Shown here piece after piece: positions 1 to 12,571 of a DNA stretch of 12,868 nt. Made by a program: the position numbers and the translations under genes. The stretch is from assembly GCA_028703735.1 (NCBI GenBank), contig JAQVMI010000018.1, positions 1 through 12,868 on the forward strand, read 5' to 3'. Positions within the stretch are counted from its first letter, which is position 1. The number at the start of each line of letters is the position of its first letter. Below the pieces are notes generated by a model. That model searched no databases, was not told where the DNA came from, and saw only the letters and a program-made list of their open reading frames with translations. Origin of the DNA: Candidatus Cloacimonadota bacterium (GTDB lineage Bacteria; Cloacimonadota; Cloacimonadia; Cloacimonadales; Cloacimonadaceae).

Positions 1-126
1 CATGTCGAAGATGAAGGTGAGTGAGTCAAGCTCTGAATAGGAAGCCGGGTTACCCGGGTTGACCTGCTGGCTGCGTCTCAATCCGTAGCTGATACCACCC
101 ATCGCTTCAGAAGCGCCCAGGGACAC
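1..126 (-). CDS. Start-less fragment of an outer-membrane beta-barrel-like protein, running off the left edge
   Basis: Read on the minus strand with codons beginning at 126, 123, 120 and so on, this stretch is open to the window edge. It encodes about 42 residues including LGASEAMGGISYGLR and NPASYSELDSLTFIF. The pattern of an AMGG..YGLR segment followed by NPASYS..DSLTF.F resembles, from memory, the region just after the signal peptide of Bacteroidota-type outer-membrane porin-like proteins. There it lies about 30-45 residues from the start, so the signal peptide and first strand are missing here. The frame differs from that of the giant gene that precedes it. An in-frame ATG exists at 141, but it has no Shine-Dalgarno sequence and no signal peptide follows it, so I do not take it as a native start. 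I infer a 5'-truncated gene whose upstream part has been replaced by the giant gene. The family assignment is moderate because only about 40 residues are visible. Confidence 0.45.
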   Translation of the reverse strand, partial: MSLGASEAMGGISYGLRRSQQVNPGNPASYSELDSLTFIFDM

Positions 127-1468
127 AGGCTGAAACGGCATCCCAACCGCTGTGAATAATCTCTCCACCCGTAAGCGCAGAACTGGATGTGACACCGCTT
201 GCCGTAGTGCTTATCAGGTTTGGAGGGGTAACACCTATGCCGTTTAGCATCGTATTAACCCCGCTTATACCGGTGCTTTCGAAGCTGAGGTAATTAGAAA
301 GATTGCCTCCGCTATCGGGAGCAAAGCGGATATATACAGTTGTGGGTTCCACATTTCCTGTAACCGGTGCAATGCTTAGCTGAGAGCCAAACTCCCTTAC
401 CCCAAGATTCAGGCTAAGCTCAAAGCCTGTCGGAGCGGTGATAACCAGGTTGTCCATCAATTGCTGAGCCGATACTATCAGCGTATCAATAGCAGAAAAC
501 TCGCCCACCACGATGCTGCCAAAGGGATTCAGCAGCGAATCCACCACAGAAATCTGGGGGATAGGAACCGTGGAAAAACTAAGCTCATTGCCATACACCA
601 AGCCTGCTACGTTTAGGGCATAAGAACGTATATAATACATGGTATTGGGGATTAGCCCGGTTAATTCTGAAGTGAACCAACCGCTTTGATTGCCTTCATC
701 GGTATGCAATTCTGCAATAGTTGGTTCTGCAGAGGTACCATAGCAAACTCCGCAAGCAGAAAGGGGAGCGAAACCGTCTGAAAGCACCCGGGCATTTACC
801 GAGGCACTAACAGATGTAATGTTCACTATAGTGGCAGTTTCCACTTCAGGTGGCAATACCCCCGTTCCGCTTAAAGCTATTGATGCAAGGCTGCATCCAG
901 TGGAAGAAGGTAACAATTGATCTGTCCATAATCCGGTTTGCATGGGGGAGAACTTGATATACACTATGGTTGGACTCAGGACATAACTGCTTGGCTCCAG
1001 GCTTAAATCCATGGAGTAGCCACTATCGGGACTAAGGGATATCTGGAACGCATTAGGACTATAAATAATTACAGGGGCAACCAGGTTTCCTCCGGATATA
1101 GTTACGTTTTGCGGTAGTGATGATTCGCCCATAGGAACATATCCGAAGCTTAGTGAATCGGTACTCACAGTTAACCAGGGTGCAGGAGTGCTAAAGGTTA
1201 CTTGCTCACCATAAGCAGTGCCAATTGCATTGGTTGCGTAGGCACGAACATAGTAATCCTGATTGGTTAGCAGGTCATTCATTTGCAGGCTATAAGAACC
1301 AAGTGAACCTGGTGCCGAAGCATGATAGTATTCCAGGGTGGGATTTTCGGTGGTGTACCAGCAGATACCACGCTCCAAAAGTGGAGTATTGCCTGTGGAG
1401 GTAATTTCGCCACCCCCAGTTGCATAATCAACTCCAACATTGGTAATAGCAGCGGTGGTTAAGCTTGG
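107..1468 (-). repeat. FN3-like/ASH-like tandem super-repeat, period 206-209 residues
   Basis: The C-terminal part alternates two domain types. FN3-like units begin at Pro2887, Pro3093 and Pro3302 (PSLTTAAITNVG, PEVETATIVNITS, PNLISTTASGVTS) and contain the G..PL..RGICW / G.APLSACGVCYG turn and the YYVRAYATN / YYIRSYALN strand. ASH/Hydin-like units begin near 2982 and 3189 (LSFGYVPMGES, NPFGSIVVGEF). The unit pair therefore repeats every 206 to 209 residues. The third FN3 copy is cut off 33 residues in. The super-repeat is not identical at DNA level. It probably continued in the ancestral protein before a terminal sorting domain. Confidence 0.7.
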
Positions 1469-4400
1469 CAAGTAAGCTCCCAAACCAGTTAGAGGCAGAT
1501 ATTCATCTGTTCCGGTATTTGTGGAGATGGTGATCTGCCCATTATAGGCAATCGCTGCAATCGGAGTGAAATGCACCACAAAGGTGGCATTGATTCCTGG
1601 GTACAGATAGAATTCCACTTCGTTTCTGGATGCAGAATTGCTTCGGGAGCTTATATACGGGGAATTTTGCTGTCTGGGTGCCGATGTAAGTTCCACAGTA
1701 TAACCTGTAGGGGTGCTTATTGTTCCGCTAAGCCCTATTTCGCCGGTATTCAAAATTTCGAAGCCAAGGGTATCAGTTTCACCCACTTCCACAGCCCCAA
1801 AATTTAGGGTAGAGGGGCTAAAAGTGTAATCCGGGGTTCCAATTCTGATAATCAAGCCCACAGCCAGATCAGGATTACCGGGGTCATTGCTAAAAAACCT
1901 AAGCTGGTTCATATACCAACCCGAAGGCAAACCAGTGGAATTTACAGAAATATCAATTGGTAAAGCAGGGTCTTCGGGTGCTATATTTCCCGAAATTGAA
2001 AAGTTGTCATTCAGCGTTATCCAATCCGTGGGCATTTGATAGTTACCGCTAAGCTGAACTTCATCTATATGCATGTCGTTGCCATAGCCGCTTTTAGCCA
2101 ATATGCCTATCTGGATATTGGCAGATTGGTCATAGGCAGATAAATCTATTGTATGCTGCCTCCACCCATTTGGCATGGTGCAGCGCAGAATGGAAAAACC
2201 TGCATCTATCCACGAACCACCATTAACTGAAACCTGCACCTGAAGTGTGTCATAATAAGTGGGATATTCGTTATCATGATACATCCAGAAGGAGAGGGTA
2301 AGCCCTGTGTAATTGGCTACATCGATACCTGGACTTTGTAAGCGGGTTCTGTTTCCAGTATGGGCATTGTAGGAATTGAAGTATCCCAGGCTACTACCTT
2401 CATGGGGAGTTATACCGATTGGGTGGCTTGTAACGCTTGTGCCATACCAGTGTCCCTCAGTTCCCATGGTTTGAGTTTCTGTCCAGCCTGTAGGGGGACA
2501 ACCATCCTCAAACCCGGTATATAACAGACTGCTCCTATCATTGCGGGAGTAATTTACCCAACCACTAAAGACAAGAGAATCCACACCTGTGTTACTGAGA
2601 TTTAGTAAACGGTGCACTGTTTCTCCCGGCTGAACATCAATATTAAAGAAAGCGTGATCCACCTCAATGCGTGCTCCACTGCCATAGCCATCCACATTTA
2701 TATTGAAAGGGGAGTTAGCTGCGTTATGGGTAACAACAACCGTGTTGGAATAGTATATTGGGTCTGTAGGCGTGAAGGTGAGGACAAATTCATTGCTGCC
2801 ACCTATGCCAACGGAAAAATCCAACACATTGCGTGCCGGTTCATATTCAGGTTTTTCGCTTGTTCCAGATTGTGCAGTTGTAAGCCTACCCCAGGGTGTA
2901 ATGCTGAAATTTGAAGGGGTGCTAATAGTGCCATGCAGAACCGCAGAACCAGGATTGGAGATTAGTATATGACGCGAACTGCTTTGAGTGTATGGGACTT
3001 CACCAAAATTGATGGTTGCTGGGTTTACCTGAATCTGAGGAACATCCGAAGACCAGTTTATACGGGAATAGGGATCGTTTTCGTGCGAAGTTCCAGCCCA
3101 GCCTCCGGTTTCATTGGTGAATTGCACAATTCCCTGATTGGATGTTTTGCTCACATTATTGAATGAGGTAGCACCCGAGGGGAAAGAGGCATAGTCTATC
3201 ACCAGATTTTGGGCATTATCCAGCCTTAATAAAGTGCCGGAACTGTAGCCATAGCGGAAGGTGCAATAGGAAAGCGGGTTAGTAGATTCTATCAAACCAC
3301 CACTCATGATATATACTCCATTCGAGCCGGTATATTCAAAGATCGCACACTCGGCATTTAGGGTGCCGCCACTGTTTACATTCAGATTGTAGTTTCCGGT
3401 GATATGGGTGATGGTGGCAACAGAACTTTCTGAGCCATTTGCAGATAAAGTGCCACCGCTCATTACATTTATAGAAGATCCGGAAAGCATTTTGAGGGTT
3501 CCGCCTGCTGCTATAACCATTTTACCCTCAGAATTGATATTTACATCGCCCTTGGTTTGAAGGGTATAAGCACCTGTATTAAAATCACCACCGTCTAATG
3601 TAACTGTTCCTGCGGTACCCAGGCTAAAGTTGCTTGCCAGGAGTACGGTAGGATAGTACCCACCTGCCACAGTTTTGTCTATCCACAGGTTTTTAAAATT
3701 TGCTGTACCGGAATTACTAAGGCTGGAATTTTGGTTACCGGTGAATTTCACAGTGCCGGTGTTATCGCTCCAGTTTCCTGTGGAACTAATGGCAAAATTC
3801 CCCCCTATTGCGTGAGTCAATCCGCTGGTGCCAAATCCCCAGGTTCCATTTAACAGGGTTACATTACCGGACATGAGCATGGGTTTGGTAGGCTGGAAGT
3901 TTCCGCTGCTTTTATCCAAGGAGAAACCTCCCAGATTGATTTCCGGGGTTCCCACCGTAATAGTTTGGGTGTTTGTTCCGTTTAAGGTTAACGTGGAATT
4001 AGGATAAGCCAGTAAACCCTTTCTGCTGCCTTCTACCCAACTGAGTGAGCTGTTGTTGTCTGTTAGATTTCCCTTTATTTTTAAGTGACCTGATGATAGC
4101 AGATAGGCGTTTGAGGCTATTGACACATTGCTATTTACCTGCACCACTGCTTCAGAATAGGTATGGAACCCACCGGAAGATACGGTTAAATCGGATAAAA
4201 TGGTCGTGTTAGATTCATCTATAATGGTTTGGTGTGCATTGGTGGGATGGTTTATCGTTAGTTTGTAGAAGCTCTGATTACCGGTTACAGTTTGTGGGTT
4301 ATAACTCGAACCGGTATTGCGGCAGATAACCTCACTTGTTCCACAAGTATATCCTGAGGTGCCAACGTTGTTTGTCCAGTCGTTACCCAGCTCCAAAGTG

Positions 4401-7400
4401 AAGTTATTGGTATTAAAAGATCCGCTTTGGATGGTTAAATCTCCGGTTATGGTTGCATTGGTAGATAGTATCAATGCAGCACTGGTTTTGTTTACTGTAA
4501 CGTTATGAAGTTTATTGTTTCCACCCAGGTTGATATTCGCCTGCACAGAACCTATGAACTCGAAGGTTCCATTCTCTTCGCAAAGCACATTATCGGTGAT
4601 CGCATATAAGCCTCTGCCAAGCTTGAAAACCGAATAGGAATTGTTATCCACGTTTGCTCCAGTAACAAACTGCAAGCCTTTGTTGGTGAACTCTATCGTG
4701 TTGCCCCAAGTTACCCATTCGCAATTTATTAATTGCCAAGAGCCTGTGTAGGGGGCATCGTTAATAAAAGTGCCTCCCCGCATTTCTACATAAGATGCTG
4801 TGGTGGTGCTGAAGTTACCATGCACTGTCATTGCCAAATCCAGAGCGTTAATAACCCCGCCCGTCATTTCAAAAATCCCATCCACAGTAAATACATCCAG
4901 AGGGATAGCACCATTTGTATCCAGCGAATAAATTGTCCCCAGATTCACAATCAGGTTGCCCATTATATGAACATTAGTTGAGGCAGTTTCGCGCCGGAAG
5001 TTCTGATCCAGAAAGCTGTTTGCTCCGGTAATCTGTAAATTTCCCTGCACCGATAGGGTAGTCCCATCCAATGGACGGAATTTCCCGGAAGTTATCTCCA
5101 GATTATTCAGCACTGTTACGGTTATTCCTGTATCAACTGTTACGTAGCCACTACCAGTGTTTATCACCAGGCGGTTAAACGTTTCGTTTGTGGCAATACT
5201 CTTTAGGTTGCTGCTGGTAATGAAGCTAACCAAACCGCTGCCTTCCAGGAAGTTACCCGCACTACCGTTATTTGTCCACCTGCCTCCCAGCTCAATCTGA
5301 TCTGCACTGTTATTATTATACAAATATCCTGCCATCGCTATTTCAAGATTCTGGTTAATAGTAAGTTTGTGTCCATTTACGTATAGCTTGCCAGAGCTAA
5401 CAGCTATATCCAGTTTTGTGCTAATATCTGTGTATAGAGACACTGCTCCTGTGATCCCGGTTTTATTTATTACCAATGTGGGCAGGTAATTTTCACTTGC
5501 CAAACTAATACTTGCCTGCCGTTCTCCTATCATTTCGATGCTGCCGGCTTCGGCTTTGAAGGTATCGGGATTATTGGCAGCAAAGCTCCAGCCCAGTTTT
5601 ATGGTTCCTCCGGTAAAATTGAAGCCGGAAGTCCCTATCTGCATACCATTATTGGTAATCTGTAAAGAGCCTCCACTCATATTTGTAATACCACCAAATA
5701 AATACATAGTGCCGTTGTAATCCGAATTGATAATCAGGCTTCCTCCGTGCAGAGCAGTACGTCCGGAAGCATATTGCAAGAAGGTATTGCCTATGTTCAT
5801 GCTGCCGGTGAAATCATCAGGCAAGTTTAGCAGACCGCTGTTATACAGGTTTGTAGCATAAACAGCAATACCCTCTGCCAGGGTTAAAGTTCCCCCGCTC
5901 CAGATATCTATCTTGCCGGCAATATGTACCGACAGGCAGTTTGTCAGATGATCATCTATAAGCGTAGTGGCGGTTGCCTTAACAATTACATCTCCGCTGA
6001 AATTGAGTTCTGAGATTCCCGTGGAGTGTAAAACAAAGGTTCTTCCGGAAATTTCATTTGTAAGAGTCCCCAGGACGGTTAAGGGTTCGTAAACATAGAG
6101 GTCACCGGAAAACATAGAATCTCCAATAAAGCTGAAGTTCACAGCCGCAGGCAAGATAACACTGCTTCCCGCCTGAATATAATGATCATCTTTTGTTCTA
6201 ATCGTTCCGGCTGTCAGGTTTAGCGCTGAAGAACCAATTTCCCACGAAACATAACTCCCCAAACCGTCTACCTCAATTAGTTCATTGGCATTATCCATCC
6301 TGATGCCGCCATGGATTTTCAGATAATCATCTATGGTTAACTGGCAGTTATCCACCTGTAAGAGGCTGCCAGATTGCACAATGCAATAGCCACTAATTTT
6401 TGTATTGGAGTTTACTGTAACCTGGTTTATCCTTTCCTCACTTTGCCTGCCACTACCTTCCCGTGAGGCTTTGTTAATAATTACATGATTCACGTAACTG
6501 GGAGAATTAACATGCAAAATTGCAGATCCAGCTCCATACATTTCCACAATTCCACCGGTGGGATTAAAACCCGGGCGTTCCACTTTAAAATCGCCCGAAG
6601 TGCGGATAATTCCGCCACTTATTATGTCACTTAGATAGTAGCCAGTGCTACTTAAAAGGATCCCATTATTCTTAAAATCCAGTATCCCACCATTCATAAA
6701 GACAGTAATAGTGCGGGTATAAGCCCATTCGCTGGCATAACTGGCTCCCCCATAGATATTAAAAGCACCGCTATAGATATATATATCTGCATCCAAATCT
6801 ACATATTGGTTTATGTCCTGATGCAGCTCTATTAAGCCGCCTTCCAGATAGTAACGTCCCATTATTCTTATATCGACGAGGTCTGCAGCACTAAACTCAG
6901 CCCCGCTTTTTACTCTTAAGGATCCGGATGACCAATTATAATCTTCGCAAACCAGTCTTTTGCCTATTGGTACCTGCAGTTCAGCTCCATTATCTTTGGA
7001 CAGTTCCAGGTTTTTAAATCCCGTTTCATAGCATTCTTCGTTGTTACTACCAAAGAACCTAACCGTGTGGTTTGCACCTGCCAAAGCTGCTTCTCCGGCA
7101 TCATTATACCAGCTTCCATAAACAGTTATCTGCCTGTTTCCTGCATCCAAGATGCCTTGGGCAATAAACATTGAACCATACAGGGTAAGATTGCTGTTTA
7201 GCGTTACGGTGGATGCGCTGTCAATTTTCAAGCTATGGATAATATCTGAACTGCCAAGAGTGATGCTCTGAGCACTTAAGCGGTTATAAATATGCAGCAG
7301 GCAGTTCTGAAATAGTATCCCCCCTGCAGAACTAAGGTTGCCATACAGCTTAAGGTCATAGTCGCAGGTGTTTACAAACGCTGCTCCGCTTGCAACAGAT

Positions 7401-10126
7401 AAATTGCCCAGGATGTTTGTAACCTTGTCTGTTTCCTCATCAACCAGTACTTCAGCCCCGCCGCTTTTATTAATGTTTAGGTGATAGAAGGAATTGGTGG
7501 AAGAATTCACCTGTATGCGACAATCGCTATTACCAATAAAGTTCACTGTAGCAGAAGTAAGCTGCACCTCAGATCCACTATTAACCAACCAGTTACCAGA
7601 TATGTTTATGGCAGCAGCCCCGAGATTGTCAAACTCCGCTGTGGAAGCCCATGTTAAATTGTTGACTATGTTTAACACTGGATTAGTGCTGCCTAAAACT
7701 AGATTTCCTGCAATTGTAGCAGAGCCATTTACTGTCAAATTACCCCTGATGTTTAGCGATGCTCCACTATCAAGGATCAAATCTCTGCATTGAACCGTGC
7801 CAGGATAGTTAATAACGGGATATCTGGTTACACCAGTAGGAATAACAACATCGGATGAAGCCGTAGGAACCACTCCAGTAGCCCAGTTTCCTGCATTGCT
7901 CCAGTTTGTGTCCACATTTCCGGTCCAGTATCCGGGATAGCCTATGGTGATGTTTACAAATCCCGTGAACGCCGCATTAGCCCAAACAATTAGCCCATAG
8001 GTATCGGCATTGGTAACAGTTAAAGAGAAAGACTCGCTGCTTGAAGATTCGCTGTTGTCACAAAATCCGCTCAGCGTGGCAGGACTGTGAAAGTAATTGC
8101 TACCGAAGGATGAACACAGCCCAAAGCCCAGATTAGTATTTTCGGTAGTGCTTAAAGTGAAGCTATAAGTCCCCGGCGAAAGAGATACATCCCACATTTT
8201 TACCACATCGCCTGCCAACCATAATAATCCTGTATTGGCTCCCAATGAAAGGCTATGCATCCCCGCTTCCAGCTCCAGTTCATTTTCACTGGTATATGGA
8301 TTAATCTCTGTTTTCAGCCCCATCTGAGCATAAGCAGTATGGGTGCGATCTAATGCAAGCCAGTTTACTTTGCTGTATGAAGAGGAACTGATCAATTGAC
8401 TGGCAAAGTTTTGGTCGTAGAGACCCAGCTTACTATGAACACTGGTGCCCCCGTTTAAAACTATGGGTTTTCTAATGCCTACCACAGTCCAGGCTGCAGA
8501 AGTTGTGGGGAATTTGTAATACACCGGACTGGAAGGAATCACAGTGGAAACATCATTCACAAGGGTTGGCACTGCTCCTCCGGCATTGATGGTAAAAGAG
8601 CCATAGCTGCCATCAGCACCCAAGATGTGCCCTTCAGCATCCATCACCTGTACCAGCACCCTAAAATCTGCTCCATTTAGACCAGTTGGGATACTCCATC
8701 CATAACTGCCATTATTGGGTGCATTAAGAGTTATGATTTCCCACCAATTATCATTTCCGTAGGCAGAGACAGGAGTATAGTATATTTCTACATGCGTATT
8801 GGGCACATTGTCGGATACCCAGCTTATTTCCATGATGCTACCAGCCTGGTAGGTTTCAAAATCAGTTCCGTTTTCCACCCAGCCATGGCCACCATCGGGG
8901 TGCAACAGGGTAATGCTACAGCCGTCCTTAGGGCGGGGATGCACCTGCACCAGTTGGTAAAATTCACTTATGTGCCAATTGTCCAGGGCCGGGGAATTTG
9001 AATTATGCACTGCTACGATTGGGCTGCTGGAATTGTAACCATAACCAACCACAGTGTGCCCCCAAATATTCATTATGGTAGGTTGTCCCCAGTCAATTTC
9101 TGTCATCAGGTCAGAATACATTGCACCATTGTTACCCAGATAGTCCACAATCCAATCGTTGTTGTAGCACCAGGAACTATGCCCTTTGTAGGTAAAGAAA
9201 TCCTCCATGCCATCATTTACGTTCCAAGGCATGGTGCTACCTCCAGAATCTGTATCCATAAAATCTGCAATCAAGGGCAGGGCATCGGGAAGATGGTGGC
9301 ACGTTTCTTCTGTATTAGGTTCATATCTGGTATAGTTGCTACCAATTAGCTTCGAATAATCACCCTCACGATCCATGGAAGTATTGTCCCAATAAGCTGC
9401 CACGGTTACCCCAGCCGTGGGAGAACAACCATAGGACCAGCGGATGGAAGGCATCAATTCCGGATGGGGGATATATACTACTTCTCTGGTTTGGGTGTGC
9501 CCTGCTAAGGATTCATTCCATTCAGTACTGTAATCATTTTGTCTGGGGGGATAATCTGGAAATTCTGTAGCGGTTAGAAATTCTTCCCGGGTAAGAACAG
9601 AACAGGGTGCCAGGGCTTTTACATAGTACTCTGTATTACCATCAGTTACCACAGACCAACGACTGCCAAAGCTAACAAAGATTTGGGACAAGGTATCGTA
9701 TTTGCCTTTCAGCTTCAGTTTAGCTAAGCTGTCTATCTCCATTGCATAAGCGTATTCGTAGGAAAGGCTGTTCGCATATCCCATTATCACGGGTTTATCG
9801 GTTCTGGCTCCCAGTGTGATACATCCAAATTCTTCGGTGTTCCAGGTTGCATCAGCCAGGTTGTTTCCAGTTTCCTTTATCCTTTCCATCAGGACAGCCT
9901 TTTCGGGGAAGGGCTGTCCTTTGCAATAATTGAATTGCCAGGCTAAGAGATCACCCTTTCTGTCATATAGGGGAATGGGTTCATCGGCATAAACCTTGCC
10001 CCAGAATTCTGTGGCATTCCTTAAGGCTATGGTTTTAACTTCGTCAAGAGGGATTTCCCGAGACTCAAAGGCAAAGGTGCTAACTGCCCATGCCAGTAAA
10101 AACAACAAAATAATCGCGGATTTCAT
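107..10126 (-). CDS. Giant secreted papain-fold cysteine protease/beta-solenoid adhesin, C-terminally truncated
   Basis: The protein has 3,339 residues. The start is supported by GGAGG at 10135..10139, eight bases upstream, and by a clear signal peptide (MKSAIILLFLLAWAVSTFA, cleavage after residue 19). Domains in order: propeptide-like region 20-220, reminiscent of C10 peptidase/Spi propeptides; papain-fold peptidase about 225-400 with YGCSPTAG (Cys234), GHTVVGYGY (His357) and VHNSN (Asn375); Ig/Kre9-like domain about 403-515; a jelly-roll-like stretch about 520-730; an NW-type module opening the solenoid at Tyr733; beta-solenoid to about 2360; ASH/Hydin-like domains (NFGEV at about 2371 and two more); MAM/cleaved-adhesin-like domain about 2534-2694; FN3/ASH super-repeat from 2887 to the end. 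By family knowledge the peptidase should cleave proteins or peptides outside the cell, while the solenoid and Ig-like parts act as stalk or adhesin. No sorting domain is present and the last repeat is broken, so the natural C-terminus is missing. The protease role is fairly secure; substrate and partner are unknown. Confidence 0.9.
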   Translation of the reverse strand: MKSAIILLFLLAWAVSTFAFESREIPLDEVKTIALRNATEFWGKVYADEPIPLYDRKGDLLAWQFNYCKGQPFPEKAVLMERIKETGNNLADATWNTEEFGCITLGARTDKPVIMGYANSLSYEYAYAMEIDSLAKLKLKGKYDTLSQIFVSFGSRWSVVTDGNTEYYVKALAPCSVLTREEFLTATEFPDYPPRQNDYSTEWNESLAGHTQTREVVYIPHPELMPSIRWSYGCSPTAGVTVAAYWDNTSMDREGDYSKLIGSNYTRYEPNTEETCHHLPDALPLIADFMDTDSGGSTMPWNVNDGMEDFFTYKGHSSWCYNNDWIVDYLGNNGAMYSDLMTEIDWGQPTIMNIWGHTVVGYGYNSSSPIVAVHNSNSPALDNWHISEFYQLVQVHPRPKDGCSITLLHPDGGHGWVENGTDFETYQAGSIMEISWVSDNVPNTHVEIYYTPVSAYGNDNWWEIITLNAPNNGSYGWSIPTGLNGADFRVLVQVMDAEGHILGADGSYGSFTINAGGAVPTLVNDVSTVIPSSPVYYKFPTTSAAWTVVGIRKPIVLNGGTSVHSKLGLYDQNFASQLISSSSYSKVNWLALDRTHTAYAQMGLKTEINPYTSENELELEAGMHSLSLGANTGLLWLAGDVVKMWDVSLSPGTYSFTLSTTENTNLGFGLCSSFGSNYFHSPATLSGFCDNSESSSSESFSLTVTNADTYGLIVWANAAFTGFVNITIGYPGYWTGNVDTNWSNAGNWATGVVPTASSDVVIPTGVTRYPVINYPGTVQCRDLILDSGASLNIRGNLTVNGSATIAGNLVLGSTNPVLNIVNNLTWASTAEFDNLGAAAINISGNWLVNSGSEVQLTSATVNFIGNSDCRIQVNSSTNSFYHLNINKSGGAEVLVDEETDKVTNILGNLSVASGAAFVNTCDYDLKLYGNLSSAGGILFQNCLLHIYNRLSAQSITLGSSDIIHSLKIDSASTVTLNSNLTLYGSMFIAQGILDAGNRQITVYGSWYNDAGEAALAGANHTVRFFGSNNEECYETGFKNLELSKDNGAELQVPIGKRLVCEDYNWSSGSLRVKSGAEFSAADLVDIRIMGRYYLEGGLIELHQDINQYVDLDADIYIYSGAFNIYGGASYASEWAYTRTITVFMNGGILDFKNNGILLSSTGYYLSDIISGGIIRTSGDFKVERPGFNPTGGIVEMYGAGSAILHVNSPSYVNHVIINKASREGSGRQSEERINQVTVNSNTKISGYCIVQSGSLLQVDNCQLTIDDYLKIHGGIRMDNANELIEVDGLGSYVSWEIGSSALNLTAGTIRTKDDHYIQAGSSVILPAAVNFSFIGDSMFSGDLYVYEPLTVLGTLTNEISGRTFVLHSTGISELNFSGDVIVKATATTLIDDHLTNCLSVHIAGKIDIWSGGTLTLAEGIAVYATNLYNSGLLNLPDDFTGSMNIGNTFLQYASGRTALHGGSLIINSDYNGTMYLFGGITNMSGGSLQITNNGMQIGTSGFNFTGGTIKLGWSFAANNPDTFKAEAGSIEMIGERQASISLASENYLPTLVINKTGITGAVSLYTDISTKLDIAVSSGKLYVNGHKLTINQNLEIAMAGYLYNNNSADQIELGGRWTNNGSAGNFLEGSGLVSFITSSNLKSIATNETFNRLVINTGSGYVTVDTGITVTVLNNLEITSGKFRPLDGTTLSVQGNLQITGANSFLDQNFRRETASTNVHIMGNLIVNLGTIYSLDTNGAIPLDVFTVDGIFEMTGGVINALDLAMTVHGNFSTTTASYVEMRGGTFINDAPYTGSWQLINCEWVTWGNTIEFTNKGLQFVTGANVDNNSYSVFKLGRGLYAITDNVLCEENGTFEFIGSVQANINLGGNNKLHNVTVNKTSAALILSTNATITGDLTIQSGSFNTNNFTLELGNDWTNNVGTSGYTCGTSEVICRNTGSSYNPQTVTGNQSFYKLTINHPTNAHQTIIDESNTTILSDLTVSSGGFHTYSEAVVQVNSNVSIASNAYLLSSGHLKIKGNLTDNNSSLSWVEGSRKGLLAYPNSTLTLNGTNTQTITVGTPEINLGGFSLDKSSGNFQPTKPMLMSGNVTLLNGTWGFGTSGLTHAIGGNFAISSTGNWSDNTGTVKFTGNQNSSLSNSGTANFKNLWIDKTVAGGYYPTVLLASNFSLGTAGTVTLDGGDFNTGAYTLQTKGDVNINSEGKMVIAAGGTLKMLSGSSINVMSGGTLSANGSESSVATITHITGNYNLNVNSGGTLNAECAIFEYTGSNGVYIMSGGLIESTNPLSYCTFRYGYSSGTLLRLDNAQNLVIDYASFPSGATSFNNVSKTSNQGIVQFTNETGGWAGTSHENDPYSRINWSSDVPQIQVNPATINFGEVPYTQSSSRHILISNPGSAVLHGTISTPSNFSITPWGRLTTAQSGTSEKPEYEPARNVLDFSVGIGGSNEFVLTFTPTDPIYYSNTVVVTHNAANSPFNINVDGYGSGARIEVDHAFFNIDVQPGETVHRLLNLSNTGVDSLVFSGWVNYSRNDRSSLLYTGFEDGCPPTGWTETQTMGTEGHWYGTSVTSHPIGITPHEGSSLGYFNSYNAHTGNRTRLQSPGIDVANYTGLTLSFWMYHDNEYPTYYDTLQVQVSVNGGSWIDAGFSILRCTMPNGWRQHTIDLSAYDQSANIQIGILAKSGYGNDMHIDEVQLSGNYQMPTDWITLNDNFSISGNIAPEDPALPIDISVNSTGLPSGWYMNQLRFFSNDPGNPDLAVGLIIRIGTPDYTFSPSTLNFGAVEVGETDTLGFEILNTGEIGLSGTISTPTGYTVELTSAPRQQNSPYISSRSNSASRNEVEFYLYPGINATFVVHFTPIAAIAYNGQITISTNTGTDEYLPLTGLGAYLPSLTTAAITNVGVDYATGGGEITSTGNTPLLERGICWYTTENPTLEYYHASAPGSLGSYSLQMNDLLTNQDYYVRAYATNAIGTAYGEQVTFSTPAPWLTVSTDSLSFGYVPMGESSLPQNVTISGGNLVAPVIIYSPNAFQISLSPDSGYSMDLSLEPSSYVLSPTIVYIKFSPMQTGLWTDQLLPSSTGCSLASIALSGTGVLPPEVETATIVNITSVSASVNARVLSDGFAPLSACGVCYGTSAEPTIAELHTDEGNQSGWFTSELTGLIPNTMYYIRSYALNVAGLVYGNELSFSTVPIPQISVVDSLLNPFGSIVVGEFSAIDTLIVSAQQLMDNLVITAPTGFELSLNLGVREFGSQLSIAPVTGNVEPTTVYIRFAPDSGGNLSNYLSFESTGISGVNTMLNGIGVTPPNLISTTASGVTSSSALTGGEIIHSGWDAVSACVPGRF
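115..130 (-). other. Apparent junction between two unrelated genes
   Basis: The third FN3-like repeat of the giant protein aligns gap-free with the first two for 33 residues, ending in SAC at Cys3334 (codon 127..125). The earlier copies then continue GICWY and GVCYG; this copy continues VPGRF and stops at 109..107. None of the three minus-strand frames resumes the FN3 pattern, so a simple one- or two-base indel does not explain the break. The outer-membrane-like frame becomes recognisable from about position 120. The breakpoint is thus narrowed to roughly 126..117. Whether it is biological or an assembly artefact cannot be told from the sequence. Confidence 0.6.
2045..2521 (-). other. MAM/cleaved-adhesin-like domain within the giant protein
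   Basis: Residues about 2536-2694 begin GFEDGCPPTGW, contain the W..G / YFNSYN segment and the TGLTLSFWMYHD strand, then DTLQVQVSVNGGSW, and close with GNDMHIDEVQLSG. This order (FE.G.PPGW, L.SP.ID, L.FW.Y, D.L.V.VS..GG.W, ..IDDV.L) matches the jelly-roll domains of gingipain-type cleaved adhesins and MAM-like modules in secreted FCB proteins. By family knowledge such domains bind protein or carbohydrate; the ligand here is unknown. It is flanked by ASH/Hydin-like domains on both sides. Confidence 0.65.
3047..7930 (-). repeat. Beta-solenoid region with at least nine divergent copies of one module
   Basis: Residues 733-2360 are dominated by short strand-turn units of the type GNLTVNG, GNLSVASG, GDLTIQSG and GGTLSANG, typical of right-handed beta-helix adhesins. 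On top of this a longer module recurs: an aromatic/hydrophobic strand with a glycine (VNFIG, VRFFG, VEMYG, IEMIG, FEFIG, VKFTG), about 15-20 residues, then F..L.INK, then about 15-20 residues, then L.I.SG. I place copies beginning near residues 861, 1021, 1193, 1529, 1632, 1854, 1932, 2045 and 2125. Spacing is irregular (about 80 to 340 residues) and the copies are diverged, so this is an old duplication history. The opening unit (YWTGNVDTNWSNAGNW, then VPT..DVVIP) is a module often found at the start of such regions in FCB proteins. Confidence 0.75.
8927..9454 (-). other. Papain-fold (C39-like/C10-like) peptidase domain within the giant protein
   Basis: This segment encodes about residues 225-400. 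Cys234 lies in WSYGCSPTAG, directly before a helix-like VTVAAYW, the usual nucleophile position in the C39-like_2 and C10 families. His357 lies in WGHTVVGYGY and Asn375 in AVHNSNS, the order and spacing expected of a Cys-His-Asn/Asp triad. All three residues are present, so the domain is predicted active. The region before it (residues 20-220, with PLYDRKGDLLAWQFNY and CITLGARTDKPVIMGY) resembles the inhibitory propeptide of streptopain-like C10 enzymes, suggesting a zymogen. C39-like and C10 cannot be separated confidently by eye. Confidence 0.75.
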
Positions 10127-11314: not shown

Positions 11315-12571
11315 ATGCCACAGAGATGCATTATTTTTTGCTTTGTTATCGCACTTCTTAGCGTTTTTCCACTTTATGCACAGCCCCAACTTGAAGGCGA
11401 ATTGCATATCGATTCCGTACAGGGTTACATCATTCAGATGCACCTGGATGTCAGCAATGTTGGCAATGAAACCTTTAGCCACACTTTCGGAGACTCCGAG
11501 GTTTGTTTCTACAGCATCGATGGCAACGAATACCACGACATGGCTTTGCCAATAGTTCTACCATTTTCCCTTGAACCAGGTGCAACATACACCTTTAACT
11601 TGACTAACCTCTATCCTCTTAGTTCCGGTTCCCACAGCATCCAGGCTTATCTAAATGTTATGGATAACGAAGGCAACCCTATGCCTATGGGGGTTCCACA
11701 AATTGTGGTGATTCCAAATTCCACCTCTATTACGATTGGTGCAGGAGATGCCCTTTCCCGCATCCCGATAGATTTTTATTGGAGAACCACTTTGTATCAA
11801 TGCATCTTTAGTGCAGAGGAACTTAATCACACTTCCGGTTGGATTTCCTCCCTGTCGTTTTATAACAACTTCAGCCAAGAAACATTCAGCAACCAACAGA
11901 TAAGAATATATCTTACCCATGTTACCCAAAACGATTTGGCAGAGGATTGGGTAGAACCAAATATGGTACCTGTTTTTTATGGATTTCTAAATTTCCCCAC
12001 AGGGGAAAACGAAATTGTAATTCCCCTATCTTCAGGATTTTATTATGATGGAAGCTCCAATTTGGCAATGATGGTGCATCGTCCCATACCAGAATCTTAT
12101 CAGATGAGTTCCGATCCATTTTTGGTACAGGCTGCAAACCCCTTGCGTTCCCGTAAATATACCAGCGATAGCACTACGCTATATCCCGGAAATCCCCCTG
12201 CTCCTGATCCATCCCAACATGTAGCATTTATGCCCAAAACAACCTTCCAGATAATCCCCAATCCCTCTGGAAACAATGATGAGCATGCTATCCCGTCTGC
12301 CATTGTTTCCAGCTTGTATCCCAATCCTGTTTTCAGCGAATGCACCATCAAGATATCTAACAGCAATCCCGAACCTGCCAATCTTGAGATATTTAACCTA
12401 CGTGGTCAGAAAATCCGCAACTTAAATAGCCCTGTAAGAATTACAGATCACATCCTTCATTGGGACACAAAAGACTCCCTGGGAAAGCCATGTCCTTCCG
12501 GTATCTATTTTTACAGAGTAAGTAGCAGGAGTAGCAGTATCAGCAAAAAGCTCATTCTTATAAGGCAGTAG
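11315..12571 (+). CDS. Secreted surface protein with type A T9SS C-terminal sorting domain
   Basis: The protein has 418 residues. AAGGAG (11303..11308) stands six bases before the ATG, and the gene begins 17 bases after the hydrolase stop, suggesting an operon. Residues 1-22 form a signal peptide (cleavage after PLYA, leaving QPQ). Residues about 25-135 are a beta-sandwich resembling the BsuPI domain (HLDVSNVGNETF, GDSEVCFYSIDGNEY, LEPGATYTFNL). Residues about 138-320 form a second domain (SRIPIDFYWRTTLYQCIFSA, WISSLSFYNNF, LAMMVHRP) that I associate from memory with Cloacimonadota surface proteins; its function is unknown. Residues about 328-418 are a textbook type A sorting domain: LYPNP, LEIFNLRGQKI, SGIYFYRV and the terminal KKLIL. 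By family knowledge this directs passage through the outer membrane by T9SS and usually surface attachment after the domain is removed. No catalytic motif is seen, so the protein may be structural or ligand-binding. Confidence 0.88.
   Translation: MPQRCIIFCFVIALLSVFPLYAQPQLEGELHIDSVQGYIIQMHLDVSNVGNETFSHTFGDSEVCFYSIDGNEYHDMALPIVLPFSLEPGATYTFNLTNLYPLSSGSHSIQAYLNVMDNEGNPMPMGVPQIVVIPNSTSITIGAGDALSRIPIDFYWRTTLYQCIFSAEELNHTSGWISSLSFYNNFSQETFSNQQIRIYLTHVTQNDLAEDWVEPNMVPVFYGFLNFPTGENEIVIPLSSGFYYDGSSNLAMMVHRPIPESYQMSSDPFLVQAANPLRSRKYTSDSTTLYPGNPPAPDPSQHVAFMPKTTFQIIPNPSGNNDEHAIPSAIVSSLYPNPVFSECTIKISNSNPEPANLEIFNLRGQKIRNLNSPVRITDHILHWDTKDSLGKPCPSGIYFYRVSSRSSSISKKLILIRQ

Follow-up and report, generated by a model that had tools for sequence, protein, structure and literature searches.

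The contig analysed here, from Candidatus Cloacimonadota assembly G000 (the host), appears to end in an assembly chimera and not in a gene fusion, a reading to which we assign a probability of about 95%. The window is the entire contig (C104, 12,868 bases), so that window base 1 is also the contig end; the assembly comprises 472 contigs, with an estimated completeness of 80.8%. On the minus strand, a giant reading frame of 3339 amino acids (107-10126) ends in ...HSGWDAVSAC-VPGRF-stop, with Cys3334 encoded by codon 127-125 and the stop codon at 109-107. The first-pass annotation had proposed two explanations for this end, namely a contig chimeric between two genomes or the fusion of two genes by a real deletion or recombination; our results strongly favour the former and make the latter improbable. 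The features are collected in Table 1.

Table 1. Features at the left end of the window, with the assignments considered most likely.
Feature	Position	Strand	Remarks
Host gene for a giant secreted or surface protein, most likely 3'-incomplete	125..10126	-	residues 1-3334; the G004 homologue shares 47.6% identity over 2-3334 and has 141 additional residues
Probable artefactual end of the giant frame (VPGRF + stop codon)	107..124	-	foreign DNA read out of frame
Foreign tail up to the contig end, from a Bacteroidales bamG (codons 44-84 and one further base)	1..124	-	124/124 nt identity to L055 3000-3123
Junction	124..125	.	base-by-base comparison with L055; possible overlap of the two sides by about one base at most (G at 124)

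A second minus-strand frame (1-210) is open at the contig end and, from base 123 leftwards, reads SLGASEAMGGISYGLRRSQQVNPGNPASYSELDSLTFIFDM. A scan of genome contigs with this left frame (65 residues) returned 63 loci, every title naming Bacteroidota taxa, and at the DNA level 46 of the 63 matched window 1-300 at E 1e-3. One of them, L055 (DURL01000074.1, a stretch of 6123 bases from the Bacteroidales MAG AS08sgBPME_89), is identical to window 1-124 at 124 of 124 nucleotides, in the interior of an intact gene; the runner-up reaches 87.7% identity over 122 bases. Because this identity is complete and the match in the AS08sgBPME_89 genome has an E value of 1.9e-58, the left frame is a real fragment of an outer-membrane protein gene and not a chance reading. 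The intact L055 frame encodes 446 amino acids, of which the tail holds residues 44-84, and the fragment therefore has neither a start nor a signal peptide, just as the first-pass annotation had described it; its proposed 42 residues and a boundary at about position 120 are refined here to 41 residues and a junction at 124|125. GC content, at 0.56 in 1-124 (a foreign side of 124 bases only), 0.53 in 125-248 and 0.45 in 125-10126, does not discriminate between the explanations. The name of the donor MAG appears to come from the project of PMC7038595, whose text contains names like AS08sgBPME_53 and describes Illumina data only, assembled with MEGAHIT.

The gene at L055 passes the curated cut-off of the NCBIfam BamG model NF053685 (314.8 vs 250 bits) and is 82% identical to a second gene, at L003, which scores 317.8 bits; the 41-residue fragment alone obtains 29.6 bits against the same model. 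Among Pfam models, none matched the L003 BamG at E 1. The earlier suggestion of an unrelated Bacteroidota-type outer-membrane protein was thus correct, and the protein can be named as a member of the BamG family, described in PMC12578637 as essential and as a FadL-like barrel within the BAM complex of Bacteroidota. The 124-base tail comes from the inside of a gene above the curated cut-off, but it is confined to those internal residues and does not belong to a gene of the host genome.

BamG-like (FadL-type) genes were found in all 60 genomes of the host's order, none of them over the curated cut-off (best 135.4 vs 250 bits); of the 14 control genomes only two matched, Bacteroides ihuae (over the cut-off) and Caulobacter vibrioides (under it). 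This other lineage may have a BAM subunit of the Bacteroidota type. This wide occurrence would fit a left frame that belongs to a BamG-like gene of the host or is where the giant gene naturally ends, yet such an origin has a negligible probability. The best host gene of this kind (C161 9308-10378, 105.6 bits, a 401-aa frame) lies on a different contig and, by tblastn, matched neither the fragment nor the L055 protein significantly; the fragment is without its first 43 codons, the homologues of the giant protein are 140-147 residues longer, and both variants are refuted by the 100% match to a Bacteroidales locus that has the missing 5' end.

The two sides of the junction otherwise look like two independent genomes. 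The 124-base piece is the sole match to window 1-2026 in the AS08sgBPME_89 genome, and the 6123 bases of L055 have no match in the host genome besides this piece. The two parents are only distantly related: the partial host RpoB is 49.5% identical to Bacteroidales RpoB over 388 amino acids vs 92.7% over 395 amino acids for the same-genus genome G004. Each parent gene also occurs separately without the junction, bamG as the intact frame in L055 and the giant gene in six homologous frames, all of which run on past the corresponding position.

These frames were obtained by searching the last 639 residues of the giant protein in 40 genomes, its own included. Matches occurred in 38 of them, many only partial, and, leaving aside the window, the stretches at the seven best places were fetched. 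Six frames (G004:C71, G013:C205, G016:C23, G026:C35, G026:C41 and a host paralogue on C467) can be aligned as far as residue 3333 or 3334, beyond which they diverge from the window protein; this bears out the earlier observation that homology ends at Cys3334. In each of the six, the residue following the last aligned cysteine or its equivalent is Gly, and the frame runs on for 140-147 residues, finishing the repeat and adding another module; none enters BamG. A homologue with the left frame directly after the repeat, which the first-pass annotation had named as evidence against a fusion of unrelated genes, is accordingly represented by 0 of these 6. The same-genus homologue G004:C71 (a 3450-aa frame, open at the contig start) is collinear with window residues 2-3334 but, unlike the window protein, has 141 more residues beyond the equivalent of Cys3334. 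The seventh stretch (G013:C172), uninformative for the tail, is cut off by the end of its own contig at the position matching residue 3073. The gene on G016:C23 is interrupted by an upstream TGA, and its pieces were compared separately.

Two side observations concern this gene family. The host itself has a second giant paralogue on C467 (L093), an open frame of 3174 amino acids about 31% identical to window residues 1472-3334. In another genus of the family, the single TGA that interrupts the homologue at G016:C23 20378-22306 (L091) could be due to a sequencing error, to strain variation or to decay into a pseudogene.

The identity to L055 starts where the homology of the giant gene stops and extends to contig base 1. 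Read in the frame of the giant gene, L055 also yields VPGRF followed by a stop, which explains the five odd terminal residues. A search of the host assembly with the 141 residues by which the G004 homologue is longer gave 25 matches. The best is the C467 paralogue (47%), and those on C104 correspond to earlier repeats within the window. Of the remainder, two lying near contig ends were read as possible continuations of the giant gene and rejected: on C224 the sequence before the shared module differs, and the matches on C101 are only about 26% identical. Among the matches read, the host assembly thus offered no convincing continuation, nor could the missing end be located by synteny, as the neighbour gene of the G004 homologue matches the host genome at only 26-33%.

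Taken as given, the sequence reads like a real and very recent transfer or recombination event that carried bamG DNA from a Bacteroidales into the giant surface-protein gene at its 3' end, truncating it by about 140 residues, and 100% identity would be expected of such an event as well. We nevertheless regard it as very unlikely: the contig stops within the foreign piece, whose length is below that of a common short read (about 150 bases), the rest of the 6.1-kb donor locus is absent from the host genome, and the junction with its bamG piece is carried by none of the six homologous frames. Nor did a search with window 1-400 of the 'phages' collection, the only phage records covered, give a match. 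A foreign stretch that is identical to an unrelated genome and ends together with the contig is what an artefact would leave.

Misassembly in de Bruijn graph assemblies usually stems from shared repeats or k-mers, so that a misjoin of two genuine contigs through such a sequence might come to mind. Outside the 124-base piece, however, the window and the 6123-base L055 have no 15-mer in common, and at most about one base is shared at the join; a repeat-driven misjoin is therefore unlikely, and for L055 it is nearly excluded. A contig joined in this way would also be expected to extend more than 124 bases into bamG. Overall, we consider this route even less probable than a recent transfer.

A single chimeric read, in contrast, can account for the tail because the latter is foreign, short, located at the contig end and without shared k-mers. 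We propose that one fragment joined the DNA of two bacteria from one mixed community during library preparation or sequencing. The partners would have been the bacterium carrying the giant gene and a Bacteroidales similar to Proteiniphilum, both presumably present in the same sample. A single chimeric read or molecule would have made the join, and the assembler would then have extended the host contig by 124 foreign bases beyond its true end and stopped. PMC8376068 describes a similar situation in viral RNA-seq, where singleton chimeric reads bridge contigs and the foreign part is found mainly at the extremities. The likeness lies in foreign sequence at a contig extremity, joined by chimeric molecules from library preparation; the difference is that host rRNA and virus were joined there in RNA-seq, whereas here two bacterial genomes would be involved, probably in a DNA metagenome, through a putative chimeric read. 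Against our reading counts the finding of PMC6162917 that chimeric reads had no substantial impact on single-cell assemblies.

Regarding the nature of the giant protein, the labels of the first-pass annotation held up only in part. 'FN3-like' is a loose label: no Pfam fn3 match is seen in the window protein at E <= 1, and the G004 homologue barely passes (26.0 vs 25 bits). The designation 'protease' was not borne out at the curated cut-off, as the first 515 residues match Peptidase_C39_2 with E 0.11 and 13.5 bits (cut-off 24); this weak match falls in the N-terminal region (window 8580-10126), and the G004 homologue gives E 0.04 and 14.9 bits against the same cut-off. A comparison with solved structures returned no match at E 0.1. 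A peptidase function may at best be taken as a lead from sequence similarity. Window 11315-12571 encodes a protein of 418 aa that carries a sorting domain for type IX secretion (TIGR04183, 49.7 vs 23 bits; Pfam PF18962); none is listed for the longer G004 homologue of the giant protein.

The annotation of the host gene can be settled on this basis. Judged by its homologues, the giant gene is most likely to be annotated as 3'-incomplete through assembly, with about 140-147 residues missing, its last five residues and stop codon being artefacts and bases 1-124 foreign. A protein database that accepted the 3339-residue frame as complete would be misled. The contig clearly illustrates how gene fusion or horizontal transfer can be mimicked by a short stretch of foreign sequence where a contig ends.
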